Virus record (IMG/VR): IMGVR_UViG_3300037963_004915
Coordinates: 3,454-26,419 of that record
Origin: a virus
DNA: 22,966 bases
Strand: one strand, 5' to 3'
Shown here: positions 1,490 through 22,236 of the stretch, piece after piece
Numbering within the stretch: the first letter of the stretch is position 1
Layout of the letters: each line of letters starts with the position of its first letter
Translations under genes and position numbers: made by a program
The notes under the pieces: model-generated
The model's input: the letters and a program-made list of their open reading frames with translations, nothing else
What the model was told of the DNA's origin: nothing
Database searches by the model: none

Positions 1490-4400
1490 TTACTCCACTT
1501 TTAATGCGGATTCACCTGATTCCTTAACTACAAGTTTTGTAGGTGAGGTTATTGTTATTTCTACAGGGTCATTACCGTCTATAGTATTTTTCTTTGTTAA
1601 TGTTATTGGTTTATAGTATACCCTAAACAAACTACTGTCATATGATACACTTTGAAATTCTGCTGGATGAAAAGATGCACTATAAGGATTATCTATTGAA
1701 GCACTTAGTGATGAAGAATAAAATTTTTGTTTTATTTCATTATGTTCACTTATCCTTGAGGAACTAACAAATGTCATGACAGGGTCTGTTAAATCTGATG
1801 TTATACCACCAAAAGTAACACTTGCAGTTGCATATAATGTTCCATATTCAGATTTTGGATTTATTTCATCAAGAACGGTTAATGATGGTATACCCAAAAA
1901 TCCAAGTGAACCACTTTCCAAACTATTTAAATTTAATTCACTTTCAAATGTTGGAAATTCTCCATCAATTCTAAAAGGATGTATAGATTGACTTAATCTA
2001 TTTGTTAATTGTACTCCATCTTGAAATTGATTAGCATTTTCAAAAAATGTGTTTTCAAATTCTGGTTGTTTACCAACAACTTCTTTAGCTCGTTCAAGTA
2101 TATTAGGTTCTATAAGTATACCAAATGTTGTATTTGCTCTTGCAGGAACCATTGTTTTCAGTTGGTCCCAAATACTTTTATCGTAATATTGTAGTATTCT
2201 CATATAATCCCAAAAATTATTTGCTCGAGCATACTTTTTCCAATACTCTCTTTGTGTTTTTTCTAATCCTCTATATTCATATTCATATTGGTCTCTTGGG
2301 TCACCTATTTGGTCATCTATATCAAAATTAGCTAAACTATATATAATATCTTCATTTACTACATCTACAGGTGAAAAGTAAATACCTAATTTATTTGAAT
2401 CTGTAGGTGCGGTATCATATGCAGAAGCCTCTCTTCTTACATTTACAGATAAACCACCAACAAGATTTGTAGGTTCTACTCTTATCTTTGTTGCGTTTCT
2501 TCTACTTGGTCCAATATTAGGTATTTGTAATTCCTCTTTATCAACAACACTTCTAAATGGATTGTCTGCAAATAGAGTTGCATCTGAACCAGTTGCATAA
2601 GATGTTCTAAATGATTTATCATCTATACCATTTGGAAATGTATCAAGGTTTACATTATCACCCATTGTTAATCTATATTCAAGATTATCATACTGAGATG
2701 CAGTAGTATTACCATTATATGCCTGTGGTGCTCGAACATGATTATCAAAAACACTTTGTGATAATGGTTCACTCCACAATCTAAATTCCATCATAGAACC
2801 ACTAAATAATACCCCTTTCATATGATTAGTATTACTTGCAGCTACTGAACCACTACCACCAATAAATAAATTACCATTTGTTATAAATGCATCATTTAGT
2901 TTTTGTCCATTAGAAGTTGTACCATCAGTTGTTAAACTCGATGAATCTTGGTAAAGTATAGTTTCTCTCGTTGCATCGTATTGTTTACAAGTAAGTTCAT
3001 ACTTAACAGAACTTTTTCTATCTTCATCAGCATTTAAATCAATACCACTACCACTAATACGAGTGAGCATAACACTCCAAAAATCACCATTATAGACAGG
3101 TAATTCAGATGAAGTTATAAATGTGTCTGTACCAGAACCTGATATTGCAAATTCTAAGTGACCTTTGTTATCTGGTGCACCATTATCTCTTAAATTAATT
3201 GCCCAACTACCCTTTGAACCTGATGCTTGCATTATTTGTTGGTCTTTAGATGGAGTTAAACTTCTATATCTAAACTCTATTGTTTGTGGTTTTATTGCAG
3301 GAGAATCAGTATTAGACCATGGAGCAATCAATATATTATTAGATTTAAAATCTAATGCATAAGTAAATTTTCTTTTTATTTCTGGTGCAACTCTTTGACC
3401 AGGTAAATTTGGTCCACCATACTCACGAACTCTTAATATAGAACTCGGTATACCATAACAATTAATTAACCCCTTTAATGCCCTCACAGTCCCTTTTGTT
3501 TTTAAAAAGAATGGTAGGTTATCAAGTATTCTTTTCCATATTTCTTCTGTCAATGATTCAGATGGAGATTCATTAAGTGCACCACCATCAATATCCTTTC
3601 CAAGTAGATATGTAGGCACAATTACTAAATCATTACCATTTGTAAATTTTATTCCAAATTGTTTACCAACTTCACGAACTATATCTTTTGATATTCCCTC
3701 AGATACTTTAGATGACCGTTCATTTACATCTGTAAAGTGTCTAACATATGACCATATTTCATCAAATTGTTGACCTATCATATCTGTAAAATTTAAAAAT
3801 TCTATATTTGAAGTATCATTTCTTACAAATGCAGGTAATTGATTTACCAACCTATCATCATTTCTTTTATCATAATCTTGTGCGTAACTTATTTGAGTAT
3901 CATACCAACCTGTAAATACAGAATGACTAGTGTGATAAATTGAAGTACTACCTGCAGCACCCTCTTTAGGCCAAGATGAATCATAAAATTCTCCAACAGA
4001 ACTACTTATGTAACTTGATGATACTGTATACAAAAAGTTTTCATATGGGTCAAACGAATTTATTACTCGTCTCTTCAAAGTTTTTTGTCTATTAAGTGAA
4101 GATAAAGAACCAGTAACATTTGTTAAATCATTAATTTCTTTAGTATAATTTTGTATCAACTCTACTTTTTTCTTCATGTTCCTTAATCGTAATTCTGCAC
4201 TACCAAACTGATTAAAATTACCGTATGCATAATCAGAAAAATCTATAAACTTTTCTGTTCTTTTTTGATAATCAACATTAACTTGTACATCTAATAAACT
4301 ACTTGAAAATAATTTATCTGCAATTTCTTGTTGTGTAGTGGTATCTGTACCAACAATATTTTCCATTGTTTGAAAACCAGTACCTTGAAAATTTATTGGA

Positions 4401-6433
4401 TTATCTTTAGAATTAAAATTTGGAACTCGTAAATATAATAGTTCTTCTAAATCTTCTTCAAATGGAATCATATCTATCGTATCCTCATATGGTTCCATTT
4501 TTTCTTCAACAAAATATACTTTAGAATTTACTTCTATTGTATCGGGTAATGGTTCATATAGTTTTATGTATCTTGCTTTTTTATCTGCTATATCATTTAT
4601 TGGAAGTGTACCATCGTTAAGTGGTAACGATTGAGCAGGTGCATCTAAAATCATAATACATAAATGCATTCCATCATCTGATACCATATAGTTATTTAAT
4701 CTTCCTACATTATTTTTACGATAGTTTACATAAAATTCATCAAATACTTTTGTTGGTTGTTGTTCACCACTATGGTCAAATTTAGTTGCTGCAGCTTCAT
4801 ATGATAAATCCACTCTAACTTTATTGAAATCTAATACTTCAGTAATTGTTGCTACATAATCAATAGGAACTTTATCTGGTAATTCACCCTCTTCTTCTGC
4901 AACAGCCAAAACAACATCTCTTGTAGTTGGAATCATTGGTTCATCTACAATATATTCATTGCCTGGTTCTAATAATCCAGGTTTACCAAGTGGTGGCTCA
5001 AACTCATCTACTGATTCTCTATTATTTGGATTTTGTGCTGGTGGTAAAGCACTTCCACCACCACCTCCACTACTGCCTGGTGAATCCTCTTGGTCTTCTG
5101 CTAATCTTAACATATTGATTCTATTTTTTCTCATTGTTAAGAAATGGTCCATACTTTTCCACTTACCAAGAGTTGCAGAAACAACATTATTTGCATAAAC
5201 CGTATGGTGTTTATCAAGTATTAAATTATATACATCTAATGGTGGGTAATTAAATTGAGTACCTACCTCATCTGCTCTGTACCAACTACCTTTATGTTTG
5301 ATGGGGTGTCCTGCAGTAGTTATAAGATTACCATATTTTGCTAATCCATCACCATATGGTCTATTATCTTTTACTACTTTTTTAACTTTAGCAAAACCTT
5401 GATTGGTTTTTACTTTCATACCAGGTTTCATCATTTTAATAGGTATCATTCTATTATTACTCAATCTGATTTTTGTATCCCCTACAAAACATGCACTACC
5501 ATAATCATCAAATTCATCATAATCTTGATAATCATTATCTGGTGCAGGAGTATCTTGAACTTGTTCTGTTACTGGTATGGAAACTGCTTCTTTAATTGCT
5601 CGTTTTAATTTTCTTCTTATTTCTTTAGCAGCATCTAAAAATCTTCTTCTGGCTTCTTCTTTTGGTCTTGGTCTTTCATCATCTATCTCATCATCCTCAT
5701 CATCTTCTACTACAGGTGGTGGGGGTGGTGGTTGAAACTCAAACATTTCTTTAATTACAATTTCTCCACCAACCATCGAATCGGTAAATCCTCTTTCATT
5801 TGTACCTGGTTCGAATAGTAATACATTAGGGTCTGTTAAATCAAATCTTATTTTACCAGCACCAGGTGTGTTTGTTTTTGGTATATAAACCATATCCTTA
5901 TTGATAGATGCAAAATTTTTCTGATATGGTACATTTTGAATTTGTTGTACATCTACTTTGACTTCTCTTCTATTTGGAGATATTTCTTTTATAAGATATT
6001 TTAATTCTCTTTCAAATAATTCAGAAAGTGGAGTATCTTCACCACCCTTGTCACTAAAAAATCGAGGTCTACCATTAACAACTTGAGTTCTAACTTTACC
6101 CACATGAATAAAACCATCTTCATTAATCAAAACACTCTTTTTTTGTCCAGCTAATCTTCTGAGAAATAAATACTGAACTGTAAATCTACCTTGAGAAAAT
6201 TGACTACCAATACTTCTAAGATGTGTACCAACATCAATATCTATTGTCTGTTCATTAGAAAATGAAACATCTTGGGGTTTTAAAATTTCATCTCCGTATA
6301 AAATATCACCAGATTCATCATATATTAGTAATCGTATAAAATCATTATCATCTTTACCCCAACCACTATATACACTTTTTGGAACATCTAATTGTAGTTT
6401 ATCTTCTTCACTTATACCATAGGTTATTGGCAT
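1490..6433 (-). CDS. Giant tail/baseplate protein with embedded Hint domain and LamG-like domain
   Basis: 1647 residues. The start ATG has GAGGT upstream and overlaps the previous gene by 10 nt. Order of parts: residues 1-230 N-terminal region; 235-240 a run of six prolines, then an acidic stretch and a basic helix (262-285); 315 to about 416 a Hint (intein/hedgehog-type) domain; about 450-465 a Gly/Ser/Pro linker; a central region with a coiled-coil-like stretch (LRLRNMKKKVELIQ); a segment with LPFFLKTKGTVRALKGLINC, seen in large tail proteins of marine T4-like phages; about 1020-1245 a LamG/concanavalin-like beta region (YALDFKS ... IEFRYRS); and a beta-rich C-terminus. It lies downstream of gp25, gp6 and the S74 protein, so it is probably a baseplate-periphery or fibre-connector protein. 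The structural role is well supported by context; the exact homologue is uncertain. Confidence 0.8.
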   Translation of the reverse strand: MPITYGISEEDKLQLDVPKSVYSGWGKDDNDFIRLLIYDESGDILYGDEILKPQDVSFSNEQTIDIDVGTHLRSIGSQFSQGRFTVQYLFLRRLAGQKKSVLINEDGFIHVGKVRTQVVNGRPRFFSDKGGEDTPLSELFERELKYLIKEISPNRREVKVDVQQIQNVPYQKNFASINKDMVYIPKTNTPGAGKIRFDLTDPNVLLFEPGTNERGFTDSMVGGEIVIKEMFEFQPPPPPPVVEDDEDDEIDDERPRPKEEARRRFLDAAKEIRRKLKRAIKEAVSIPVTEQVQDTPAPDNDYQDYDEFDDYGSACFVGDTKIRLSNNRMIPIKMMKPGMKVKTNQGFAKVKKVVKDNRPYGDGLAKYGNLITTAGHPIKHKGSWYRADEVGTQFNYPPLDVYNLILDKHHTVYANNVVSATLGKWKSMDHFLTMRKNRINMLRLAEDQEDSPGSSGGGGGSALPPAQNPNNRESVDEFEPPLGKPGLLEPGNEYIVDEPMIPTTRDVVLAVAEEEGELPDKVPIDYVATITEVLDFNKVRVDLSYEAAATKFDHSGEQQPTKVFDEFYVNYRKNNVGRLNNYMVSDDGMHLCIMILDAPAQSLPLNDGTLPINDIADKKARYIKLYEPLPDTIEVNSKVYFVEEKMEPYEDTIDMIPFEEDLEELLYLRVPNFNSKDNPINFQGTGFQTMENIVGTDTTTQQEIADKLFSSSLLDVQVNVDYQKRTEKFIDFSDYAYGNFNQFGSAELRLRNMKKKVELIQNYTKEINDLTNVTGSLSSLNRQKTLKRRVINSFDPYENFLYTVSSSYISSSVGEFYDSSWPKEGAAGSTSIYHTSHSVFTGWYDTQISYAQDYDKRNDDRLVNQLPAFVRNDTSNIEFLNFTDMIGQQFDEIWSYVRHFTDVNERSSKVSEGISKDIVREVGKQFGIKFTNGNDLVIVPTYLLGKDIDGGALNESPSESLTEEIWKRILDNLPFFLKTKGTVRALKGLINCYGIPSSILRVREYGGPNLPGQRVAPEIKRKFTYALDFKSNNILIAPWSNTDSPAIKPQTIEFRYRSLTPSKDQQIMQASGSKGSWAINLRDNGAPDNKGHLEFAISGSGTDTFITSSELPVYNGDFWSVMLTRISGSGIDLNADEDRKSSVKYELTCKQYDATRETILYQDSSSLTTDGTTSNGQKLNDAFITNGNLFIGGSGSVAASNTNHMKGVLFSGSMMEFRLWSEPLSQSVFDNHVRAPQAYNGNTTASQYDNLEYRLTMGDNVNLDTFPNGIDDKSFRTSYATGSDATLFADNPFRSVVDKEELQIPNIGPSRRNATKIRVEPTNLVGGLSVNVRREASAYDTAPTDSNKLGIYFSPVDVVNEDIIYSLANFDIDDQIGDPRDQYEYEYRGLEKTQREYWKKYARANNFWDYMRILQYYDKSIWDQLKTMVPARANTTFGILIEPNILERAKEVVGKQPEFENTFFENANQFQDGVQLTNRLSQSIHPFRIDGEFPTFESELNLNSLESGSLGFLGIPSLTVLDEINPKSEYGTLYATASVTFGGITSDLTDPVMTFVSSSRISEHNEIKQKFYSSSLSASIDNPYSASFHPAEFQSVSYDSSLFRVYYKPITLTKKNTIDGNDPVEITITSPTKLVVKESGESALKVE
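5186..5491 (-). other. Hint (intein-like) domain coding segment inside the tail protein
   Basis: Protein residues 315-416. Block A is CFVGDTKIRL with Cys315. Block B is TTAGHPIKHKGSWYRADEV with the T-x-x-H arrangement. Block F is VYNLILDKHHTVYANNVV. No homing endonuclease fits in about 100 residues. The usual terminal His-Asn plus Cys/Ser/Thr of a splicing intein is absent: after VYANNVV comes SATLGKW. By family knowledge this fits a bacterial intein-like or autocleaving Hint module better than a splicing intein. Disordered acidic/Tyr and Gly/Ser linkers flank it on both sides, as expected for a processing module inserted between folded parts. Confidence 0.75.
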
Positions 6434-7266
6434 TTTTCAAACCTCACATTAATATCATCATAATCCACTCTGTATAATCCAAGTAATTTATCAACTGCTT
6501 GTGGATTAGTTTTCATAACTTCTTGTGCCATAACACCTTTATATCTTTGTGTACCCCATATATATCTGAATTCATATGTGTTAAATCCATTTTCTATACC
6601 AACTGGTACGATATCTCGTTTTAATCTTTCATCACTAAATATTTTCTTTAGTGCTTTACCGACTTTTTTAACTGTTTTCTTTACTGCTTTTACTGTACCA
6701 CTTGGTTTTATTCTATCTAAAACCTTTTTACCAAGACTTTTTTTCTTGGGTGGTTTTGCATCTTGTGCTGCTTGGTCGGTTAAATCTGCTATAGTTTTAT
6801 TCAATCTATTTATAGTATCGGTAAGACTTTGGTTCAATTCTTCCGTTGCGGCTTCTTGTTCTGCCAATGCTTCTTGTAACACTACTGTATCTGCTTCATC
6901 AATACCTTCAGCTTCTAATTCATCGTCTATATCATCTACCTCGTTTGGAAATATTTCTAAAAATTGTAAATCATTACCAAACTTTTTTATTACTAATTCT
7001 TGAGTACTCACTCTTTGATTTACAAGTAAACGAACATTTTGATGTGGTGCATCAATAGAATTCCCTAAATTATCTGGATCTTCAAATGATTGTAAAACAC
7101 CCTCACCATTTCTGATAGGAGTTACTGCATCTAATGCAGAACCACTAATTTGCATTCGTTTAAATGCATCTTCTGCAAGTTCTTTTTGGCGTTGTTTATC
7201 ACCATCATTTACATTAGTGTAAAATTGATTGTTTTTAGATTTTAACTGTTCTGCAGTGTACGGCAT
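6424..7266 (-). CDS. Virion protein with short C-terminal S74 intramolecular chaperone/peptidase domain
   Basis: 280 residues, ATG start. Residues 125-165 form an acidic coiled-coil-like helix, 172-208 a strongly Lys-rich segment, and 211-272 a compact S74-type domain: SDERLKRDI, then YEFRYIWG, KGVMAQEV and a terminal YRVDYDDI. In endosialidase-type S74 domains a Ser and a Lys five residues later form the self-cleavage dyad; here these are Ser211 and Lys216. The domain is shorter than usual because the C-terminal helical stalk is missing. Such domains assist trimerisation of fibre proteins and are then released. It sits between the DNRLRE-like protein and the giant Hint protein, overlapping the latter by 10 nt, so it belongs to the tail. 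Confidence 0.75.
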   Translation of the reverse strand: MPYTAEQLKSKNNQFYTNVNDGDKQRQKELAEDAFKRMQISGSALDAVTPIRNGEGVLQSFEDPDNLGNSIDAPHQNVRLLVNQRVSTQELVIKKFGNDLQFLEIFPNEVDDIDDELEAEGIDEADTVVLQEALAEQEAATEELNQSLTDTINRLNKTIADLTDQAAQDAKPPKKKSLGKKVLDRIKPSGTVKAVKKTVKKVGKALKKIFSDERLKRDIVPVGIENGFNTYEFRYIWGTQRYKGVMAQEVMKTNPQAVDKLLGLYRVDYDDINVRFEKCQ

Positions 7267-13935: not shown

Positions 13936-13962
13936 AGGGGGAGTCTATCCGAGGCTCCCCCT
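13936..13962. terminator. GC-rich hairpin between convergent genes
   Basis: An 8-bp stem AGGGGGAG/CTCCCCCT (13936-13943 with 13955-13962) and an 11-nt loop, in a very AT-rich genome. It lies 21 nt after the plus-strand stop and overlaps the last codons of the GH6 gene, whose stop (13945-13947) is in the loop. Leftward it is followed by a moderately U-rich stretch. A bidirectional terminator is the likeliest role. Confidence 0.65.
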
Positions 13963-14778
13963 TATCAAATCCACAGTTTTTTGAGCATTGAATCTTCCAG
14001 CTTTTGGCCAACCGTTTACAGCACCATCACTTTCACCTGGAGTTTTAATCCAAAGGTATGCATCACAATAATCTGAATTGGTTTTAGTAGTGGGCAATGG
14101 TCCAAGTTTCATGTTTGGAGGATTAAATGTTTCATCTACCTCATTACCATTACGAGAGGTATCAATCACATAACTACATCCAATGTTATTTGCAATATAA
14201 TCACCATAATTTATACATTTATCTGTAGTTACAAAATTACTTGTATTAAGACTAAATCCTTTTATAGATTCATTCATAAATATATTTAAATAATCTACTG
14301 CTTCCATCTTTTTTAACCAATATGGATGACCAATATCAAGATAAATCAAAGCATTTGATTGAGTTAATATTTTTAGTGATTCTATTATAAGATATTTTCT
14401 ATCCCTAAAATCTTGTGTACTCATGTTACTCATATGAGGAATTGCATCAGGTTCAAAAATTACTAAGGGTTGATAATCACCTATACCGTCTGTAACATTT
14501 CTTATATATTTTAGATAATCGTTTGGGTGTAATCCACCTTTAGAATGTCCACCCACATCCCTACCAGTAATCGAATATAAAACAATGGTAGGTTGTGTAG
14601 GAAACGCATGTTTACATAATCTATGTATTCTTGATGATAATCTCTTTATTGGTTTTTTTATATTCTTTTCTACATACCAAACTGCGTGAGGTTGAGATGT
14701 AATATAACCAAGTTCAGGATAATTTATTATGTTATGTTTTCTATAATTCCACGAATGTTGAAATAGTATCAAAACCAA
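13945..14778 (-). CDS. Glycoside hydrolase family 6 (endoglucanase/cellobiohydrolase-like)
   Basis: 277 residues covering a compact GH6 domain. GH6 enzymes cleave beta-1,4-glucan with inversion. The conserved blocks appear in order: SQPHAVWYV (28-36), ITGRDVGG (Asp74), IFEPDAIPH (Asp111, the expected acid), IYLDIGHPYWL (Asp148), GFSLNTSNF, YVIDTSRNG, LGPLPT and LWIKTPGESDG (Asp251). All four key aspartates are present. No signal peptide or carbohydrate-binding module is seen, so export would need lysis or virion attachment. The start is not ATG: TTG at 14778, overlapping the sigma gene by 10 nt, or TTG at 14772 in a TTGA overlap. The stop lies in the terminator loop. It is last in the operon after the late sigma gene. 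Target could be cellulose-like exopolysaccharide; that is inference. Confidence 0.88.
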   Translation of the reverse strand: MVLILFQHSWNYRKHNIINYPELGYITSQPHAVWYVEKNIKKPIKRLSSRIHRLCKHAFPTQPTIVLYSITGRDVGGHSKGGLHPNDYLKYIRNVTDGIGDYQPLVIFEPDAIPHMSNMSTQDFRDRKYLIIESLKILTQSNALIYLDIGHPYWLKKMEAVDYLNIFMNESIKGFSLNTSNFVTTDKCINYGDYIANNIGCSYVIDTSRNGNEVDETFNPPNMKLGPLPTTKTNSDYCDAYLWIKTPGESDGAVNGWPKAGRFNAQKTVDLIRGSLG

Positions 14779-15488: not shown

Positions 15489-15739
15489 TATATATCCTTT
15501 TCTGTTATTTTTGTTAAATCATTTACGGTATCTTTGATACCCTCAAATACAGTACCGATTTCATCATCAGATTCGAACTTACCCTCTGAATCTAATTCAT
15601 CGAGTATACTTTTAGTTTGTATTACTCTAGCAGAATATTCCTCAACCCAATCTTCTAATCTTTCTACTTTACGAAATAAATTAAAACTTGTATACATAAA
15701 TGTTATTGTGGTTATTCCTAAAATTATTTCAATGACCAT
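15488..15739 (-). CDS. Small single-pass membrane protein
   Basis: 83 residues. ATG start with GGAG 7 nt upstream. Residues 2-20 form one membrane helix (VIEIILGITTITFMYTSF), followed by a coiled-coil-like stretch and an acidic segment DSEGKFESDDEIGTVFEGI. Small proteins with this plan (N-terminal helix, then an FE.DDE.G.VF motif) occur beside gp55 in marine T4-like phages as far as I recall. Function unknown. Confidence 0.7.
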   Translation of the reverse strand: MVIEIILGITTITFMYTSFNLFRKVERLEDWVEEYSARVIQTKSILDELDSEGKFESDDEIGTVFEGIKDTVNDLTKITEKDI

Positions 15740-16512
15740 TATTTATCTCCAAATAGTTCAGTAAATAAATCTTTGGCATTTTCACCTCTAAGTTTAGTAT
15801 CTACTTCAGTATTTACTGCTTTTTTAATATTAGTAACTGATTTAGCAACTCGTTTAGTTTCTTTTTTATCTCCACGAGTCCACTCATCTGCTTCTATAAA
15901 GGTTGCCATGACATCTGCTTGATGTAGAATACGAGCAATATTACTTCTAAGTGCAACCTCTTTGGAATATGTTTTTAAATACTTTTCATTTGCTTGTTCA
16001 TACAAACCATCTGTAAGTCTTAAACCAATATATTCATTTTCGGTCATTTTGATACCAAAATGTTGAAGTAACCAACATGCCCTATCCGTAACTGTCATGA
16101 ATGTAGGTATAGGATTATGGTTATATATTTTACCTTGATTTTTTCTGTGCCAATCAGATTCATTAATTACATAATAATCATCTTCTAAATCACCAACCTT
16201 ACCTAAATCATGATGGAGTGCTGCAAAAATTAATTCCTCATCTGTAAAATTAATATCTGCACCATTTTGTTCCCATAATTTTTTTATTTGTTCTGAAAAA
16301 TCAACAATATGTAATACATGCTCTACATAACCACCAACCATGGCATTATGATAATGTTCTCTACCACTTGCTGGTGCTACTACCATTCTATCCTCAAAAT
16401 AATCATACATTGTATTTAACTTATCTAATCGTTCGCCTGAAAAGGTTTTACCGATTATATCTCTAAGTCTATTCCAATTATCTTGTATTTGTTGTTCAGT
16501 AAGTTGTTTCAT
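15739..16512 (-). CDS. HD-domain phosphohydrolase
   Basis: 257 residues. The HD metal-binding pattern is visible: His65 in GYVEHVLH, His101-Asp102 in ALHHDLGK, and Asp200 in LHQADVMA. HD enzymes hydrolyse phosphoesters, often nucleotides, using a divalent metal. The gene follows a sigma70-like promoter in the 71-nt gap upstream and overlaps the next gene by one base. GGAG lies 13 nt before the ATG, which is long. It could be a dNMP/dNTP phosphohydrolase or act on a signalling nucleotide; the substrate cannot be read from sequence. Confidence 0.85.
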   Translation of the reverse strand: MKQLTEQQIQDNWNRLRDIIGKTFSGERLDKLNTMYDYFEDRMVVAPASGREHYHNAMVGGYVEHVLHIVDFSEQIKKLWEQNGADINFTDEELIFAALHHDLGKVGDLEDDYYVINESDWHRKNQGKIYNHNPIPTFMTVTDRACWLLQHFGIKMTENEYIGLRLTDGLYEQANEKYLKTYSKEVALRSNIARILHQADVMATFIEADEWTRGDKKETKRVAKSVTNIKKAVNTEVDTKLRGENAKDLFTELFGDK

Positions 16513-16583: not shown

Positions 16584-17438
16584 TTATTTTTTTTCATTTA
16601 TTGATTTTAGATAAGAACCACCGATATTCCAAAACAATGTCTTACCTTTTAATTTTTCTATATTCTGTTCTAACCAGTACCATTGTTTTTTATCCCAAAA
16701 TTCATTACAATCAAATGGTACTTCATAATCATCCATCATATCATCAAATGCATAAGGTGATTTCTCAAGTATGATATTTTTTAAATCACCCGCATGATTT
16801 TCATTTAAAATCTTTTTTGTTGATGAGAATGCACTCATCGTAATAGAGTAAACCTTTCGTGATACCGAATCCAACTTCCACCAATCATCACCATACTCTA
16901 AAAATTCTTTTATCAATCCACTTGCAGTTACACCACTTCCGATACTCACTACAAGATTGTCATAATCCCTATCTTTTAATACTTCTTTCATCCTATCACC
17001 CATATAACTTATATATGCAGGATGATTAAACGCGTAAGGTAATTGTTGCCAACCATTTTCTTTTGCTTGAGTGTTTAGTTTGTTTTGCATAAATGCCATC
17101 ATATTAGGTCTCATGGGATGTAACTTACCACCATTACCCTCAACTCGTTCTAACAATATTTTTGGAAACCTATCAGTATTAGGATATGCAGAAATAAATT
17201 CTATATCATAGTCTTTACATAACTTACTTAATGTCCAACCTGTCCAACTACCATAAACTGATAAGTGTGTTAGTGGTTTTGATTTATCTATACTATCACT
17301 CTCTAAGATTTTTTTGATACCCTCAATCTTTGCCCATCGTGGAAATATATTACCATCTCCAACTAAATCATCTCTCTTGACATCAACATCAATACCTTTA
17401 AGTGAATATGTTTCTACTGGTGTTTGTATTAAACCCAT
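16584..17438 (-). CDS. Fold-type II PLP-dependent enzyme (ACC deaminase/desulfhydrase-like)
   Basis: 284 residues. The N-terminus TPVETYSLKGIDVDVKRDDL matches the start of the ACC-deaminase/D-cysteine-desulfhydrase branch of the TrpB-fold family. The probable PLP lysine is Lys37 in FPRWAKIEGI, analogous to PFSKIRG in phage relatives. SIGSGVTASGL (165-175) matches the phosphate-binding Gly loop, and WNIGGSYLK the C-terminal loop. The family removes or replaces groups on amino-acid side chains using PLP. It overlaps the end of the AsnB-like gene by 10 nt and has only a weak ribosome-binding site, so the two are translationally coupled and may share a pathway. The substrate is unknown. Confidence 0.75.
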   Translation of the reverse strand: MGLIQTPVETYSLKGIDVDVKRDDLVGDGNIFPRWAKIEGIKKILESDSIDKSKPLTHLSVYGSWTGWTLSKLCKDYDIEFISAYPNTDRFPKILLERVEGNGGKLHPMRPNMMAFMQNKLNTQAKENGWQQLPYAFNHPAYISYMGDRMKEVLKDRDYDNLVVSIGSGVTASGLIKEFLEYGDDWWKLDSVSRKVYSITMSAFSSTKKILNENHAGDLKNIILEKSPYAFDDMMDDYEVPFDCNEFWDKKQWYWLEQNIEKLKGKTLFWNIGGSYLKSINEKK

Positions 17439-18934
17439 TTCCCAAATCCATTTTCAGTACCAGATAAGGTATCTCTCATACCCTTATGTTTAAAACCAAA
17501 TATTCTTTCAAAGTTATCACCGATACAATGAAATAGTTTTTTTCTATTTCTAAAATTTATTTCTACATCATTTAAAATTACATCTTCAATATACTCTTTG
17601 AAATTTGTTCCTTTCTGAAACGCTCTTTTCTCTTGGTCACATACCTCATCTGGTAAGTGTCCACGAAATGCTTCAGCAAGTGGTTTCTTCCATTGGTTTC
17701 CACTATTATCTAATACTGGTTGTGTAAGGTTAGTAGTGTAATCTAAAAAATCTAAATCAAAGAATGGACATCTTAATTCTATTGTTCCATAATTCATAAA
17801 GATATTATTTCCGCGAAGTAAATTACCATAGTATTGTTTCTCAAATAATTTCTTTCGTACATCACTCCAATCTGGTTTCTTACTGAACATTCTGAATGTA
17901 CCATATGAACCATACGATTCATCAGAACCCTCACCACTAAACGCAACCTTAACACCATCCTCTGCCATTCTCTCGGCAACATAACTTTGTAGAATACCAA
18001 CTTCCATTTGGACTGTCGATGGATATTCTATAACCTTTATTGTTTCTAAAAATTTTCTTTTTAATTCTTCTGGGTCTCGTGGTATCTCTACCTCAACCAA
18101 TGGTACATTGATATGTTCTGCAACCATTCTTGCAAACATTAAATCTCTTGAATCCTCATCAAACTTACAAGTGTATGAAACGATATCAGGTACTTTCTTA
18201 CTTAACAAATAAGTAATCACACTTGAATCAATACCACCACTTAAACAAGTTGCAACCTTAACATCACTTAATAATCTTTTTTCTACAGCGTTATCTAATA
18301 ACTCATATGTTTTTTTATTAACCTCATCTTGGTCAAACTCTTTATCTTCAAATGGTGTCCAAGTAAAATAATAATCTTCCTCAATATGTACTGAACCAGT
18401 AATTGTATTTATTTTAACTACTGAATTTTTTGGAACAAACTTACATTCTGCTTGTGGTAATATTTTTAATATTGATTTCATTTCTGATGCAATCAAAATA
18501 TTTGTATCATTGTTATAAATATATAATGGAATTTTACCAACCCAATCTCTTGATATAACTAATTCATTTGTTAATTCATCATGCAATACAAAACTAAACA
18601 TACCCTCTAATCTTTTTAATTCATTTTCTTTGTACAAATATAAAATTATTTCTGAATCACTATTACTAAAAAATGTATAACCTCGTTCTTCATATTCTTT
18701 TCTTAATTGTGGATAGTTCCAAATCTCACCATTAACAACAAGTGCATAATCATCAAATACAAATGGTTGGTTTCCTGCCTCACTTACATCATTGATACTC
18801 AATCGATTATGACCAAGATGTACATTACCACTTTCGTATATACCTCTATTATCTTTACCTCTATGTTCAATCTGTTGTAGCATATCAACTACTACTTCAT
18901 CACTATGATTGATAGTACTAACTATTCCACACAC
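17429..18934 (-). CDS. asnB: Asparagine synthase-like glutamine amidotransferase (AsnB family)
   Basis: 501 residues from a GTG at 18934. This start gives Met-Cys-Gly-Ile-Val, placing the class II amidotransferase nucleophile at Cys2 as the mechanism needs a free N-terminal Cys. AAGGAG lies 7 nt upstream of this GTG, while the ATG six codons earlier has no ribosome-binding site. Glutaminase residues: Arg44 (GHNRLSI), Asn68-Gly69 (VNGEIWN) and Asp in SDSE (92-95). The synthase half has the ATP-binding SGGIDSS (232-238) and SGEGSDE. It uses glutamine ammonia and ATP to amidate a carboxyl such as aspartate. E. coli AsnB has 554 residues. It overlaps the thymidylate-synthase-like gene by 17 nt and the PLP gene by 10 nt. 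It may serve asparagine supply or amidate another substrate; position favours the latter only weakly. Confidence 0.88.
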   Translation of the reverse strand: MCGIVSTINHSDEVVVDMLQQIEHRGKDNRGIYESGNVHLGHNRLSINDVSEAGNQPFVFDDYALVVNGEIWNYPQLRKEYEERGYTFFSNSDSEIILYLYKENELKRLEGMFSFVLHDELTNELVISRDWVGKIPLYIYNNDTNILIASEMKSILKILPQAECKFVPKNSVVKINTITGSVHIEEDYYFTWTPFEDKEFDQDEVNKKTYELLDNAVEKRLLSDVKVATCLSGGIDSSVITYLLSKKVPDIVSYTCKFDEDSRDLMFARMVAEHINVPLVEVEIPRDPEELKRKFLETIKVIEYPSTVQMEVGILQSYVAERMAEDGVKVAFSGEGSDESYGSYGTFRMFSKKPDWSDVRKKLFEKQYYGNLLRGNNIFMNYGTIELRCPFFDLDFLDYTTNLTQPVLDNSGNQWKKPLAEAFRGHLPDEVCDQEKRAFQKGTNFKEYIEDVILNDVEINFRNRKKLFHCIGDNFERIFGFKHKGMRDTLSGTENGFGKWV

Positions 18935-19604
18935 GAAGTAACTCCTTGACATTTTTCTTTTCGTTATTCATATCACCAAGATGAACTGAACCACCAATTG
19001 TTGTAACCCGTTTTAATTTTAAATCTGCTTGTTCACATAAGAACTTACCCATCTCACATAACGCCATCCAATCAGCATAACCACTTTTACTAATTCTCAT
19101 GCTACGAAAAAATGCAGTTAAATACAATCCCTCTTTACGAGGTTTCAAGTCAATTGATAATAAACAAGGCATTCCACTCATTGTTTTCCTACCATCTGAT
19201 TTAGGGTCATAAATACTCATTGCAATTGTTTTACTATTCTTATGTTCTTTTAATCTCTTAATAGTTTGTTCTACTTGATTAAAACTATTATCCCAATTAA
19301 TCATTCTACCCCAATAAGTTTTGTTCCACTTTACTTTGGTATCATTTTGTTGAAATTGTAATTCATCCATAAATGGGTGTAGTTTTGGTTTTACAAATGT
19401 AACTGATGATGCATAATCTATCCTATCATCACCAAAGATATACCGAAAGGTAGAATCAAATTTTTTATCGATATCAAAGTTATCTTCTATCTCTACGGAC
19501 ATATTAATACTTTCGTTCATCACATCTTTGTTACCATGTTCTAAAAGATACTCGTGTGATTTTATCCAAGCATCTGTCGGTGAATTTGCTTTAATTACTT
19601 TCAT
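18918..19604 (-). CDS. Thymidylate synthase-like protein, possible dCMP hydroxymethylase
   Basis: 228 residues, shorter than the 264 of E. coli ThyA. The C-terminal half shows the fold: GMPCLLSIDL with Cys147 (nucleophile position), LYLTAFFRSMRIS with Arg167-Ser168 (the phosphate-binding RS), YADWMAL, and GGSVHL with His208. By direct alignment on the RS pair, the position equal to Asn177 of E. coli TS is Asp178. In T4 dCMP hydroxymethylase this Asn-to-Asp change shifts the substrate from dUMP to dCMP. The catalytic Asp169 position of TS is Arg here, so chemistry may differ. It overlaps the methyltransferase stop by ATGA, indicating coupling. Confidence 0.75.
   Translation of the reverse strand: MKVIKANSPTDAWIKSHEYLLEHGNKDVMNESINMSVEIEDNFDIDKKFDSTFRYIFGDDRIDYASSVTFVKPKLHPFMDELQFQQNDTKVKWNKTYWGRMINWDNSFNQVEQTIKRLKEHKNSKTIAMSIYDPKSDGRKTMSGMPCLLSIDLKPRKEGLYLTAFFRSMRISKSGYADWMALCEMGKFLCEQADLKLKRVTTIGGSVHLGDMNNEKKNVKELLRVWNS
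18942..18947 (-). promoter_or_regulatory. Ribosome-binding site that fixes the AsnB-like start
   Basis: AAGGAG on the minus strand, 7 nt before the GTG at 18934 and downstream of the ATG at 18952. It makes the six extra N-terminal residues of the longer frame unlikely. Confidence 0.8.
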
Positions 19605-21220
19605 TTCTTATGATACACAAATATAGGTTCGAATTTATACACATTATTATCATGTTCAACTGAATTTAATATTCCAGTCTTACTTGGGTCTAACCCAATC
19701 ATTCTTGTCATTAACATTTTTAATTTACCTTTATATTCACATCCAAGTTCTTCTAATATTTTTCTACTATCACCCTCTAAATCATAATAAGTATTTGCAC
19801 CAATTTTGATACTAGCAATATTCCAAAGTATATATCTATCATCTTTAAGATACTCATATGCAGTTGTAAGAGTTGGTCTAAGAAAATTATCAACCCAATC
19901 TTCATATTCTGAATATGCTTTAAAACTTTGATTCTCATCTTGTGAATATTGTTCACGATTAAAATACGGTGGTGAAGTAAACACCAAATCTAATTTACCT
20001 TTATACTTTTGAAAATTTGGATTGTTACTTATTAATTCACTACCCTCTCTAAATACATCATATGTATTACTTTGCTTTTGTACTTCAAAAAATTGAGTAA
20101 ATGTTTCAGAAAAATCATCTACACAATTTTCATTGTAAAAATTAGCAACTGCTTCATACCTACCAAAATTATCAGGATTAGGGTCGGTTCCTACATAATG
20201 TATTTTTTTACGAGAACTCATTGCTCCCAATATCCTACCACCCCAACCACTTGATGGGTCATATATATGAAATCTTTGGTCTTGATTTTCTATATGGTCT
20301 GTAAATTTTTCATATAGTAATTTTGCTGTAAGTGGTGGGAAGTTTACTGCAGGTTGTCCACATGCTAATCTAAATACTTGTAATATCTTTGGAAAAATTC
20401 CAACCGTTTTATCATAGTGTCTAATTAAATATAAAAATTTAGTTACTTTACCACTTTTACTTGTTTCTTCTGAAATTATATCTTCTATGTTACTTAACAT
20501 AGTATCATCTAATAACCCATTATCTTTACACTCTTGCACGTCTTTTGCAGTTAGGTATACATTACCATGGCCTTTGTATTCTTCATTCATAGTACCATAG
20601 TTTCCGACTGTACTTTCCTTTACTCTTGCAAGTACAAATCTCACATCTTTATGTTTACCAATACAAACCTTACCATCATGGACATTCTTGATAAACTCTT
20701 TACCACTCTCTCCATTCCAAAATGGATTTTCATCTTTCTTGGTTACAATACTTCTTGACCATGAATACATGGAATCTCTTTTTACTGCCCTACGCATTAT
20801 ATGTACAAACTTTTCTTCCATGCTTGGGTCACCAAAATGGTCATAGATAGATAAACCATTATCAGCAGATTTACCAATACTGATTTTTGTTTTTAACATT
20901 GTTGGAAAAAACTGATTAACACCAGATGCATCTTTATTAAAATTCTTAATTATACCAAGTGATTCACTATCACCAGTATTATCCTCAATCAAATAATCAC
21001 AAGGATTACCTTTTAACTTTTTAAACTTTTTTATTAACCCATCTTCATCTTTACCAATGACAGGTGGTGTACCATAAACATCCCATTGTTCAGTAACTTC
21101 ACTGCGAAGTAATCGTGCCCATTCTGTAAACTCGTCGGTAGACATTTGTAAAAGCTTATGATAGGTGGTGTTTGATTTAAACTCAGAGAATCGACTTCTC
21201 TCATAAAACCATTTTTTCAA
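19601..21220 (-). CDS. SAM-dependent amino-methyltransferase with TSPPYF motif
   Basis: 539 residues. Motif I-like region is YDPSSGWGGRILGA (320-333) followed by a GTDPNPDN turn. The catalytic motif IV is LVFTSPPYF (412-420), the TSPPY form of N4-cytosine and some N6-adenine methyltransferases. The C-terminus has the family's EPIFVYHK. Residues 1-300 are an extra N-terminal region without a recognised domain (FSEFKSNTTYHK, GTPPVIGKDEDG). The start is TTG at 21220 with GAGG 6 nt upstream; a nearby ATG is out of frame. Role: probably base methylation or a step in DNA modification. No restriction partner is in the window, consistent with phage self-protection. Confidence 0.8.
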   Translation of the reverse strand: MKKWFYERSRFSEFKSNTTYHKLLQMSTDEFTEWARLLRSEVTEQWDVYGTPPVIGKDEDGLIKKFKKLKGNPCDYLIEDNTGDSESLGIIKNFNKDASGVNQFFPTMLKTKISIGKSADNGLSIYDHFGDPSMEEKFVHIMRRAVKRDSMYSWSRSIVTKKDENPFWNGESGKEFIKNVHDGKVCIGKHKDVRFVLARVKESTVGNYGTMNEEYKGHGNVYLTAKDVQECKDNGLLDDTMLSNIEDIISEETSKSGKVTKFLYLIRHYDKTVGIFPKILQVFRLACGQPAVNFPPLTAKLLYEKFTDHIENQDQRFHIYDPSSGWGGRILGAMSSRKKIHYVGTDPNPDNFGRYEAVANFYNENCVDDFSETFTQFFEVQKQSNTYDVFREGSELISNNPNFQKYKGKLDLVFTSPPYFNREQYSQDENQSFKAYSEYEDWVDNFLRPTLTTAYEYLKDDRYILWNIASIKIGANTYYDLEGDSRKILEELGCEYKGKLKMLMTRMIGLDPSKTGILNSVEHDNNVYKFEPIFVYHKK

Positions 21221-21783: not shown

Positions 21784-21833
21784 AAATAAATATCTCCATT
21801 TCTTTTTAAAATACAACATTTTTTTATTTTTTG

Positions 21834-22236
21834 TGGAGCTGGGGGGATTCGAACCCCCGTCCTGCATATATTTTATAAATAGTCATTCACAGCTTAGTTT
21901 GGTTCCAAATCGGTAGTCACCAACAACCCACCATGTCTCACTTTACTCAGAGTGGTTTAACTGATGAAATTTTATACTCTATCACACGAGTGGATGTCTA
22001 ACTTATTTTATGACCGAGTGTTAGACAACTCAGTATCTTAAGCCGCGTAGGCGTAAGATGGTTGGGAATCACCGATTGGTAATTCTGAGTAATCATACTC
22101 AGTCAAATGCCAATCTATCACCAACCCGTCTAGCGATTGTTCGCCAATTGAGTTTCGTTGAGTTTTATTTAAGAGTCTACTCAAACTCTGCTGCACTAAC
22201 TTACAAAACGATACCAGTCGATTTCCAGTCAGCCCC
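21834..22236 (-). ncRNA. ssrA: One-piece tmRNA (SsrA-type)
   Basis: 403 nt without encoded CCA. The 5' end GGGGCTGACTGGAAATCGAC pairs with the 3' end CAGCTCC in a 7-bp acceptor stem; the T-arm reads GGACGGGGGTTCGAATCCCCC. A 10-bp helix 2 forms between TTTTGTAAGT near the 5' side and ATTTATAAAA near the 3' side. An H-type pseudoknot pk1 lies at 22158-22189 (stem 1 22172-22176 with 22185-22189; stem 2 22158-22163 with 22179-22184). A helix GTCTAAC/GTTAGAC (21996-22002 with 22020-22026) follows the tag stop. tmRNA frees stalled ribosomes and tags incomplete proteins. Its 5' end is 3 nt after the stop of the preceding small gene, so it is probably processed from a longer transcript. Confidence 0.93.
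22038..22145 (-). other. Predicted tmRNA tag reading frame, unusually long and structured
   Basis: From a likely resume codon GGC (22143-22145), 12 nt after pk1, an open frame of 35 codons ends at TAA 22038-22040. The tag would start GEQSLDG and end QPSYAYAA, the latter being a plausible Clp-type degradation end. Most bacterial tags are near 10 residues. The frame is filled by nested stems 22060-22065/22121-22126, 22074-22079/22110-22115 and 22085-22091/22096-22102, and the resume codon lies in a small hairpin (22132-22136/22141-22145). The shifted frame GCG AAC AAT CGC TAG would give only ANNR. Confidence 0.6.

Follow-up and report, generated by a model that had tools for sequence, protein, structure and literature searches.

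What might a T4-like phage make with a methyltransferase, a thymidylate synthase-like protein, a glutamine amidotransferase, and a pyridoxal phosphate (PLP) enzyme encoded in one run of overlapping genes? This question is raised by the window analyzed here, a 22,966-nt stretch of the 26.4-kb virus record IMGVR_UViG_3300037963_004915 (positions 3,454 to 26,419). A 120-kb viral contig holds the identical cassette with identical neighbors (L003/G001; L and G numbers are labels of the collected viral loci and records used for comparison). The phage is T4-like: G001 encodes relatives of T4 gp41, gp43, gp44, and uvsX, and the window contains a baseplate-wedge-like gene and a transfer-messenger RNA (tmRNA). 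The initial annotation had likened the cassette to phage base-hypermodification pathways, and our results support this likeness. On sequence evidence, the four genes most likely build an unusual, probably amino-acid-decorated cytosine into viral DNA. That the cassette carries out DNA modification of some kind we regard as highly probable; that it is a cytosine hypermodification pathway running along the scheme proposed below we favor with more reserve.

All four open frames lie on the minus strand. The first encodes a TSPPY (N4/N6-type) S-adenosylmethionine (SAM) methyltransferase (MT) of 539 aa (19601 to 21220) and begins with TTG, where L008 and L021 have ATG at the equivalent place. It is followed by the gene for the thymidylate synthase-like (TS-like) protein (18918 to 19604; 228 aa), a predicted enzyme for 5-hydroxylation or hydroxymethylation at C5 of deoxycytidine monophosphate (dCMP); by that for an AsnB-like glutamine amidotransferase/ATP-dependent synthetase (17429 to 18934, GTG start, in an open frame of 17429 to 18952); and by that for a PLP enzyme, of fold type II by its distant relatives and homologous to gp52 of Pseudomonas phage M6 (16584 to 17438; 284 aa). 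Domain matches bear out the four enzyme classes annotated at the outset, and the open frames confirm the annotated head-to-tail overlaps of 4, 17, and 10 nt. The 17-nt overlap follows from placing the AsnB-like start at GTG 18934, the most likely start by sequence: it gives Met-Cys-Gly-Ile, making the glutaminase Cys residue 2, and each of the 17 AsnB relatives listed has an ATG or GTG in frame directly before Cys-Gly-Ile (17/17). L003, L008, and L021 have the same three overlaps; elsewhere they vary, with 17 and 10 nt but no MT-TS overlap in G015, the 10-nt overlap alone in G008, and 4, 13, and 4 nt in L052. Ratios of dN/dS were 0.06 to 0.14 in 12 comparisons (four genes, each against L004, L008, and L021), and all four genes are under purifying selection.

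Scanning viral contigs with the TS-like alignment yielded 65 loci, which form 39 clusters at 95% nucleotide identity. We judged the longest locus of each cluster, with limits of about 2 kb from TS for AsnB (2.5 kb for an upstream gene), 4.5 kb downstream for PLP, and 8 kb for MT, the last where 8 kb was present on both sides. Homologues of the four families were found together, a result in favor of the initial annotation: wherever a cluster had room, AsnB lies near TS (36/36), PLP follows downstream in all but one (32/33), and a TSPPY MT is within reach in every case (18/18). Counted over all 65 loci regardless of room, AsnB is present in 62 of the 62 loci with 800 nt downstream, PLP in 52 of the 53 with 3 kb (L131 being the miss), MT in 53/65, and a radical SAM enzyme in 3/65. 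Of the 12 loci counted as MT misses, many are cut off; L094 and L131 do have 8 kb downstream, and the MT of L131 is fused and divergent. With AsnB relatives in just 17 of 50,697 phage records, the linkage of TS, AsnB, PLP, and MT appears to go beyond chance, an argument from rarity. The cassette is thus a real, conserved, modular unit of uncultured T4-like phages. In 13 of the 18 clusters with 8 kb on both sides it sits between uvsX/gp41 and gp43, the interval that in T4 holds gene 42 and the beta-glucosyltransferase gene and in RB69 holds the TS-superfamily protein p048 and sugar genes. A 5-hydroxy-dCMP synthase of the RB69-type locus is spoken of in PMC13390438.

The TS-like protein carries a PF00303 match (4.8e-7; 29.6 bits versus a cut-off of 24.3). 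Its best NCBIfam model is TIGR03283 (5e-23, below the model's cut-off), which is also the best model for RB69 p048 and not for T4 gp42. An AlphaFold2 model (predicted template modeling score [pTM], 0.84) has tied fold matches to MilA (Z 18.8; root mean square deviation, 3.4 over 204 residues) and to two PDB entries for a phage dCMP hydroxylase (AfhB) and a riboflavin-dependent monooxygenase with dCMP (Z 18.7 and 18.2). A profile search of the PDB likewise retrieved MilA (4e-8) and the dCMP hydroxylase (2.6e-6); searches with the single TS-like sequence returned nothing useful from the PDB. It is from the titles of PDB entries 9iqc and 9iqu that we take flavin-dependent hydroxylation of dCMP as the chemistry of RB69-type synthases. 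With RB69 p048 as the query, phmmer at E 0.01 matched 38 open reading frames (ORFs) in the collected phages, and the four listed ones are TS-like genes. None of 50,697 phage records matched the TS-like gene, searched as one query sequence at E 0.001. Of 17 virus records, PF00303 identified a single TS-family gene in each of 14 and found nothing in the remaining three; it misses G007, yet tblastn detects a TS-like gene there.

Three residues of the TS-like protein, Cys147, Ser168, and Asp178, are invariant in its alignment with 21 of 21 relatives, and Asp178 stands at the place of T4 Asp179. According to PMC5175136 and PMC6400193, the equivalents of these residues are the nucleophile, a deoxyribose-selecting Ser, and a cytosine-selecting Asp. 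Because the cytosine-selecting position holds Asp in 21/21, the alignment supports a predicted action on a cytosine nucleotide (dCMP), and the cytosine substrate in the originally suggested C5 hydroxymethylation of dCMP therefore stands. For the sugar, the residues point two ways: Ser168 favors deoxyribose, and the invariant Lys125 occupies the place of MilA Lys133, which goes with ribose in MilA.

The hydroxymethylation half of that suggestion fared less well. If the TS-like protein were a T4-type, folate-using dCMP hydroxymethylase, the resulting 5-hydroxymethyl-dC would then receive an amino-acid-derived decoration, and we consider this rather unlikely. Cys147 and Asp178 are conserved as such an enzyme would have them, and MilA, a CMP hydroxymethylase, is both the first fold match (by a tie) and the better profile match. 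However, T4 Asp171, on the pterin side, is replaced in the 21 relatives by Arg (19) or Ala (2), and T4 Tyr218, part of the pterin water network and a contact of the sugar 3'-OH, by Gly (18), Arg (2), or Thr (1); these T4 roles are given in PMC5175136 and PMC6400193. The catalytic Glu58/60 has no clear equivalent in an N-terminal half whose alignment is unsure, although an invariant Asp50 lies nearby. Profile comparison by hhalign gave 97.2% (E 3.8e-11; 197 columns) against RB69-type 5-hydroxy-dCMP synthases versus 10.7% against T4-type dCMP hydroxymethylases. Profile nearness alone is indecisive on the chemistry, because the RB69 and T4 types score 98.5% with each other, above the score of either with the TS-like protein. 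Neither hydroxylation nor hydroxymethylation is established, given this mutual nearness, the equal or better match to MilA, and the position of the TS-like proteins in a clade of their own; we lean toward hydroxylation as the first step.

The AsnB-like protein has both expected domains, PF00733 (1.9e-42) and GATase_7 (PF13537; 6.5e-34), and its best solved relative is asparagine synthetase B (1ct9; 7.5e-48). It shares with that enzyme the two-domain architecture, the N-terminal nucleophile Cys, the PP-loop, and GEGSDE; Cys2, SGGxDS (PP-loop), and GEGSDE are invariant in eight aligned AsnB-like proteins. It differs in having Gln309, in all eight aligned phage proteins, opposite the Arg in the TTVRAS segment of asparagine synthetase 9b6c (the 1ct9 alignment is shifted at TT[IV]RAS, and the window segment STVQMEVGILQS has no Arg). 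In asparagine synthetase this Arg binds aspartate; free aspartate is therefore an unlikely substrate of the AsnB-like protein. A further difference is that the synthetase domain occurs alone, without the glutaminase domain, in seven viral loci, with TS alongside in all seven contigs. The gene also differs in its company, standing near the TS-like gene (36/36 clusters) or, where TS is absent, with MT and PLP. Plain asparagine synthesis was rejected on the Arg-to-Gln change and the loss of the glutaminase domain in some relatives. Two of the 17 phage records with AsnB relatives reach 80% coverage, both of Streptomyces phage TurkishDelight, whose gp124 is AsnB-like (31% identity over 92%) and lies between two methyltransferase genes; among 14 proteins translated there, phmmer at E 1 found no match to the cassette MT, TS, or PLP protein. 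In L132 (8001 to 10133) a single frame joins TS-like and AsnB-like parts with the AsnB start missing, through fusion, deletion, or an assembly fault.

The PLP enzyme ties the cassette to M6. It matches phrog_7093 (5.5e-24), with Pfam PALP below cut-off (0.02) and ACC deaminase 1j0a at just 0.0013 in a profile search, and its tblastn relative in M6 (2e-18; 28% identity over 94%) is gp52. Relatives occur in 64 of 50,697 phage records, all below 60% identity, and 52 of these are Pseudomonas phages. Lys37, the presumed Schiff-base lysine, is present in 14 of 14 aligned proteins, including that of M6. The M6 gp52-family enzyme reportedly acts as a decarboxylase on an amino-acid moiety, and the M6 pathway is said to give an amino-acid-derived decoration. 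Beyond the homologous PLP enzyme, the two systems share a TS-family enzyme, an HD gene beside TS, and a radical SAM enzyme, present in a few cassette relatives (M6 gp53 matches Radical_SAM below cut-off). The cassette differs in having Asp178 (21/21) rather than a uracil-type Asn at the TS specificity site, and in carrying an AsnB-like enzyme and TSPPY MTs instead of the kinase and transferase. M6, whose DNA contains 5-(2-aminoethyl)-dU according to PMC6449724, encodes an amino acid:DNA transferase and a 5-hydroxymethyldeoxyuridine (5-hmdU) kinase. Neither the 5-hmdU DNA kinase (HMUDK, PF18723) nor the amino acid:DNA transferase (PF18724) was found in 18 virus records (0/18 for each), some of which may be fragments, while the M6 control was positive for both.

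The MT bears a DNA-methylase signature (PF01555, 5.3e-8; 33.5 bits versus a cut-off of 26.7), preceded by an N-terminal region of about 290 aa outside the assigned MT domain. SAM motif I (S-x-G-W-G-x-R) and SPPYF are invariant in 15 aligned MTs, the window protein and paralogues included. The protein is of the N4/N6 DNA methyltransferase type, and DNA methylation is predicted. Its model (pTM 0.71) has a class I methyltransferase fold, with the tRNA methyltransferase Trm11 as the best match (Z 15.3) and TrmN also among the best; matches of the Trm11/TrmN type are shared by many class I methyltransferases. Besides the cassette MT, G001 has two related frames, one of them short (203 aa), next to clamp-loader and polymerase genes. 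TSPPY MTs number two in G008, neither directly beside TS, one in G015, and one in G004 (80 kb read). MetK is encoded in two of the four large records (G008 and G004), and G008 has a SAM lyase-like protein near the cassette. A SAM lyase-like protein (PF23780; L061, 1865 to 2494) and a SAM synthetase (L060, 11855 to 13024) occur near the cassette of one phage.

Relatives show how the module varies. Radical SAM enzymes occur in the module of L024 (between AsnB and PLP; L023 retains the tail of one where its contig ends), L100 (upstream of TS), L131, and L136. In L131 the radical SAM enzyme is fused to a TSPPY MT (4486 to 6891; PF04055 plus PF01555), and this fusion lies beside TS and near an AsnB-like gene that has the synthetase domain only. 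The L131 polymerase we take to resemble the PolA type, though gp41- and gp44-like genes match. L136, from an Ignavibacteria metagenome-assembled genome, encodes MT and TS together with a radical SAM enzyme and an AsnB-like protein of the synthetase-only form. A pattern scan for radical SAM found two viral members, both in the module, its patterns missing the L131 fusion. In a second group of 13 loci (L156, L158 to L165, L167, L169, L171, and L172), MT precedes PLP in 13/13 and AsnB lies downstream in 11/13, the remaining two loci ending soon after PLP. Both translated examples (L158 and L172) encode a 2-hydroxyacid dehydrogenase-like protein after PLP; the one in L172 (9004 to 9882; PF02826 and PF00389, Pfam having been run for L172) lies between PLP and AsnB. 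In L158, an aspartyl/asparaginyl beta-hydroxylase-like protein (6009 to 7172; PF05118, 1.5e-9) is encoded directly 3' of AsnB.

The pathway that we propose starts from observed gene identities, linkage, key residues, and replication-module position in most relatives with enough flank; its reactions, their order, their action on nucleotide or DNA, and the product we infer. Before replication, the TS-like enzyme would alter dCMP at C5, with 5-hydroxy-dCMP, the RB69-type product, as the most likely outcome, and kinases and polymerase would place the modified nucleotide in DNA. The AsnB-like enzyme might then use ATP to activate a carboxylate, with an amide formed from glutamine-derived ammonia, and the PLP enzyme might act on the amino-acid moiety, leaving a base with an amino-acid-derived group. 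Further tailoring of the base could come from TSPPY MTs, of which each of the four large records has one to three frames, and from the radical SAM enzyme of a few relatives. The amino-acid decoration is suggested by the homology of the PLP enzyme to M6 gp52 and by the radical SAM partners of a few relatives.

This proposal resembles both of the sugar-based pathways. With RB69-type phages the cassette shares a TS-superfamily enzyme with the cytosine Asp and profile similarity over 197 columns, the replacement of T4 Asp171 (Asn in the RB69 type), and, in many relatives, the same uvsX-gp43 interval; it differs in having AsnB and PLP enzymes instead and a TS-like protein in a separate clade. With T4 it shares the replication-module position in many relatives and the Cys and cytosine Asp of the TS fold, while Asp171 and Tyr218 are not retained. 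Glycosylation of the RB69 or T4 kind was rejected for want of gene matches by phmmer: RB69 locus proteins p045 to p047, p049 to p053, and p055 had none at E 0.01 among the collected phage ORFs (mostly from partial records), and the T4 alpha- and beta-glucosyltransferases had none at 1e-3 in the four large records.

Several observations weigh against the proposed pathway. In our tree the TS-like proteins form their own clade on a long branch, with unsure deep joins, and transferring chemistry across so long and separate a branch is risky. In the lineage of the window the cassette is found close to baseplate genes, and in G001 some 80 kb separates it from gp43. No T4-type dCTPase (PF08761) was detected in 17 records (0/17), by a search whose control was weak (a match in 1 of 14 genomes, below cut-off) and did not include T4, and gp56 had no phmmer match at 1e-3 in the four large records. 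Full replacement of dC is therefore doubtful; if dC is replaced, it may be so only in part, or another pyrophosphatase may serve. dUTPase is present in 6 of the 17. Radical SAM genes accompany just the 3 of 65 TS loci counted above, L131 and L136 (with TS, a synthetase-only AsnB-like gene, and radical SAM) have no PLP gene nearby, and a TS-like gene was detected in none of the nine whole records searched (0/9) from the second group, which has MT, PLP, and AsnB. Finally, ThyX is present in one of the 17 records (G008). Because it was not found in the other 16, their gene content is compatible with a thymidylate role for the TS-like gene.

Such a role belongs to a different reading, in which the genes are metabolic, serving nucleotide and amino-acid pools during infection (through thymidylate, asparagine, and threonine/serine breakdown) and leaving the DNA unmodified. 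Taken by themselves, the family names (asparagine synthase, threonine dehydratase, and thymidylate synthase) would fit it, as would the TS-like gene being the sole TS-family gene seen where ThyX was not found. We nonetheless think it improbable: the genes are linked to TSPPY MTs and replication genes, Asp178 indicates cytosine and not dUMP, all eight AsnB-like proteins have Gln309 for the TTVRAS Arg, some relatives are missing the glutaminase domain, and in G008 supply of dTMP need not depend on the TS-like protein, because ThyX is additionally present. A canonical thymidylate synthase was rejected on the Asp at the specificity site and on the separate ThyX of G008 (1/17 records only). Modification of RNA, for instance tRNA, rather than DNA seems to us less probable still, even though the best fold matches of the MT are the tRNA enzymes Trm11 and TrmN and the AsnB-like protein is weakly similar to a tRNA-modifying PP-loop family (PF03054; 2.5e-4). 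TS-family enzymes work on mononucleotides, the setting is one of replication genes in 13/18 clusters, and the MT carries the PF01555 signature. Ser168, moreover, favors deoxyribose (PMC5175136), though Lys125 stands at the MilA Lys133 place. A deazaguanine pathway was also rejected: among the scanned window proteins just the AsnB-like one is weakly QueC-like, the whole records not having been searched for Que genes. In phage Motura, AsnB sits with QueC/QueD/QueE.

Cytosine hypermodification thus remains the reading that we prefer, and it admits a more specific form that we put forward tentatively, as possible rather than probable. T4-like phages might have a third cytosine route, in which 5-hydroxy-dC made at the nucleotide level bears an amino-acid-derived group on the ring oxygen or a neighboring site. 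The AsnB-like enzyme would activate and amidate the carboxylate of this group, the PLP enzyme would build or trim the amino-acid part, and variants with radical SAM, 2-hydroxyacid dehydrogenase, and MT would give a combinatorial family of bases, with no M6-type kinase intermediate. Of the pyrimidine pathways compared, those of T4 and RB69 pair a TS-like enzyme with sugars, and that of M6 relies on a kinase and the transfer of an amino acid. The kind of pathway is known; the open-access papers searched gave no description of these four enzymes as a set. If true, an AsnB-like, ATP-using route to modified cytosine would be added chemistry for evading host defenses, and the cassette would supply new enzymes for DNA labeling.

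The cassette is adjoined by a gene for an HD-domain phosphohydrolase (15739 to 16512, minus strand; phrog_28876, 2.8e-11; Pfam HD 0.0078, below cut-off), a possible accessory acting on the nucleotide pool. The HD gene follows PLP in window-type relatives, and precedes the radical SAM-TS-AsnB-PLP run in L100; just 4 of 18 clusters have one within 8 kb. A glycosyl hydrolase family 6 protein, of a cellulase-type family, is encoded at 13945 to 14778 (minus strand; PF01341, 3.4e-37), adjoining the cassette, and is kept in many, not all, window-type relatives. The phage-encoded tmRNA (21831 to 22236, minus strand; Rfam RF00023, 88 bits) specifies the tag GDSQPSYAYAA. A 1,647-aa protein (1490 to 6433, minus strand) contains a stretch, CFVGDTKI..., that resembles a Hint/intein-type domain. 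In G001, a frame at 105267 to 108056, between the phage polymerase and ribonucleotide reductase genes, presumably encodes a protein resembling a TonB-dependent outer-membrane receptor.

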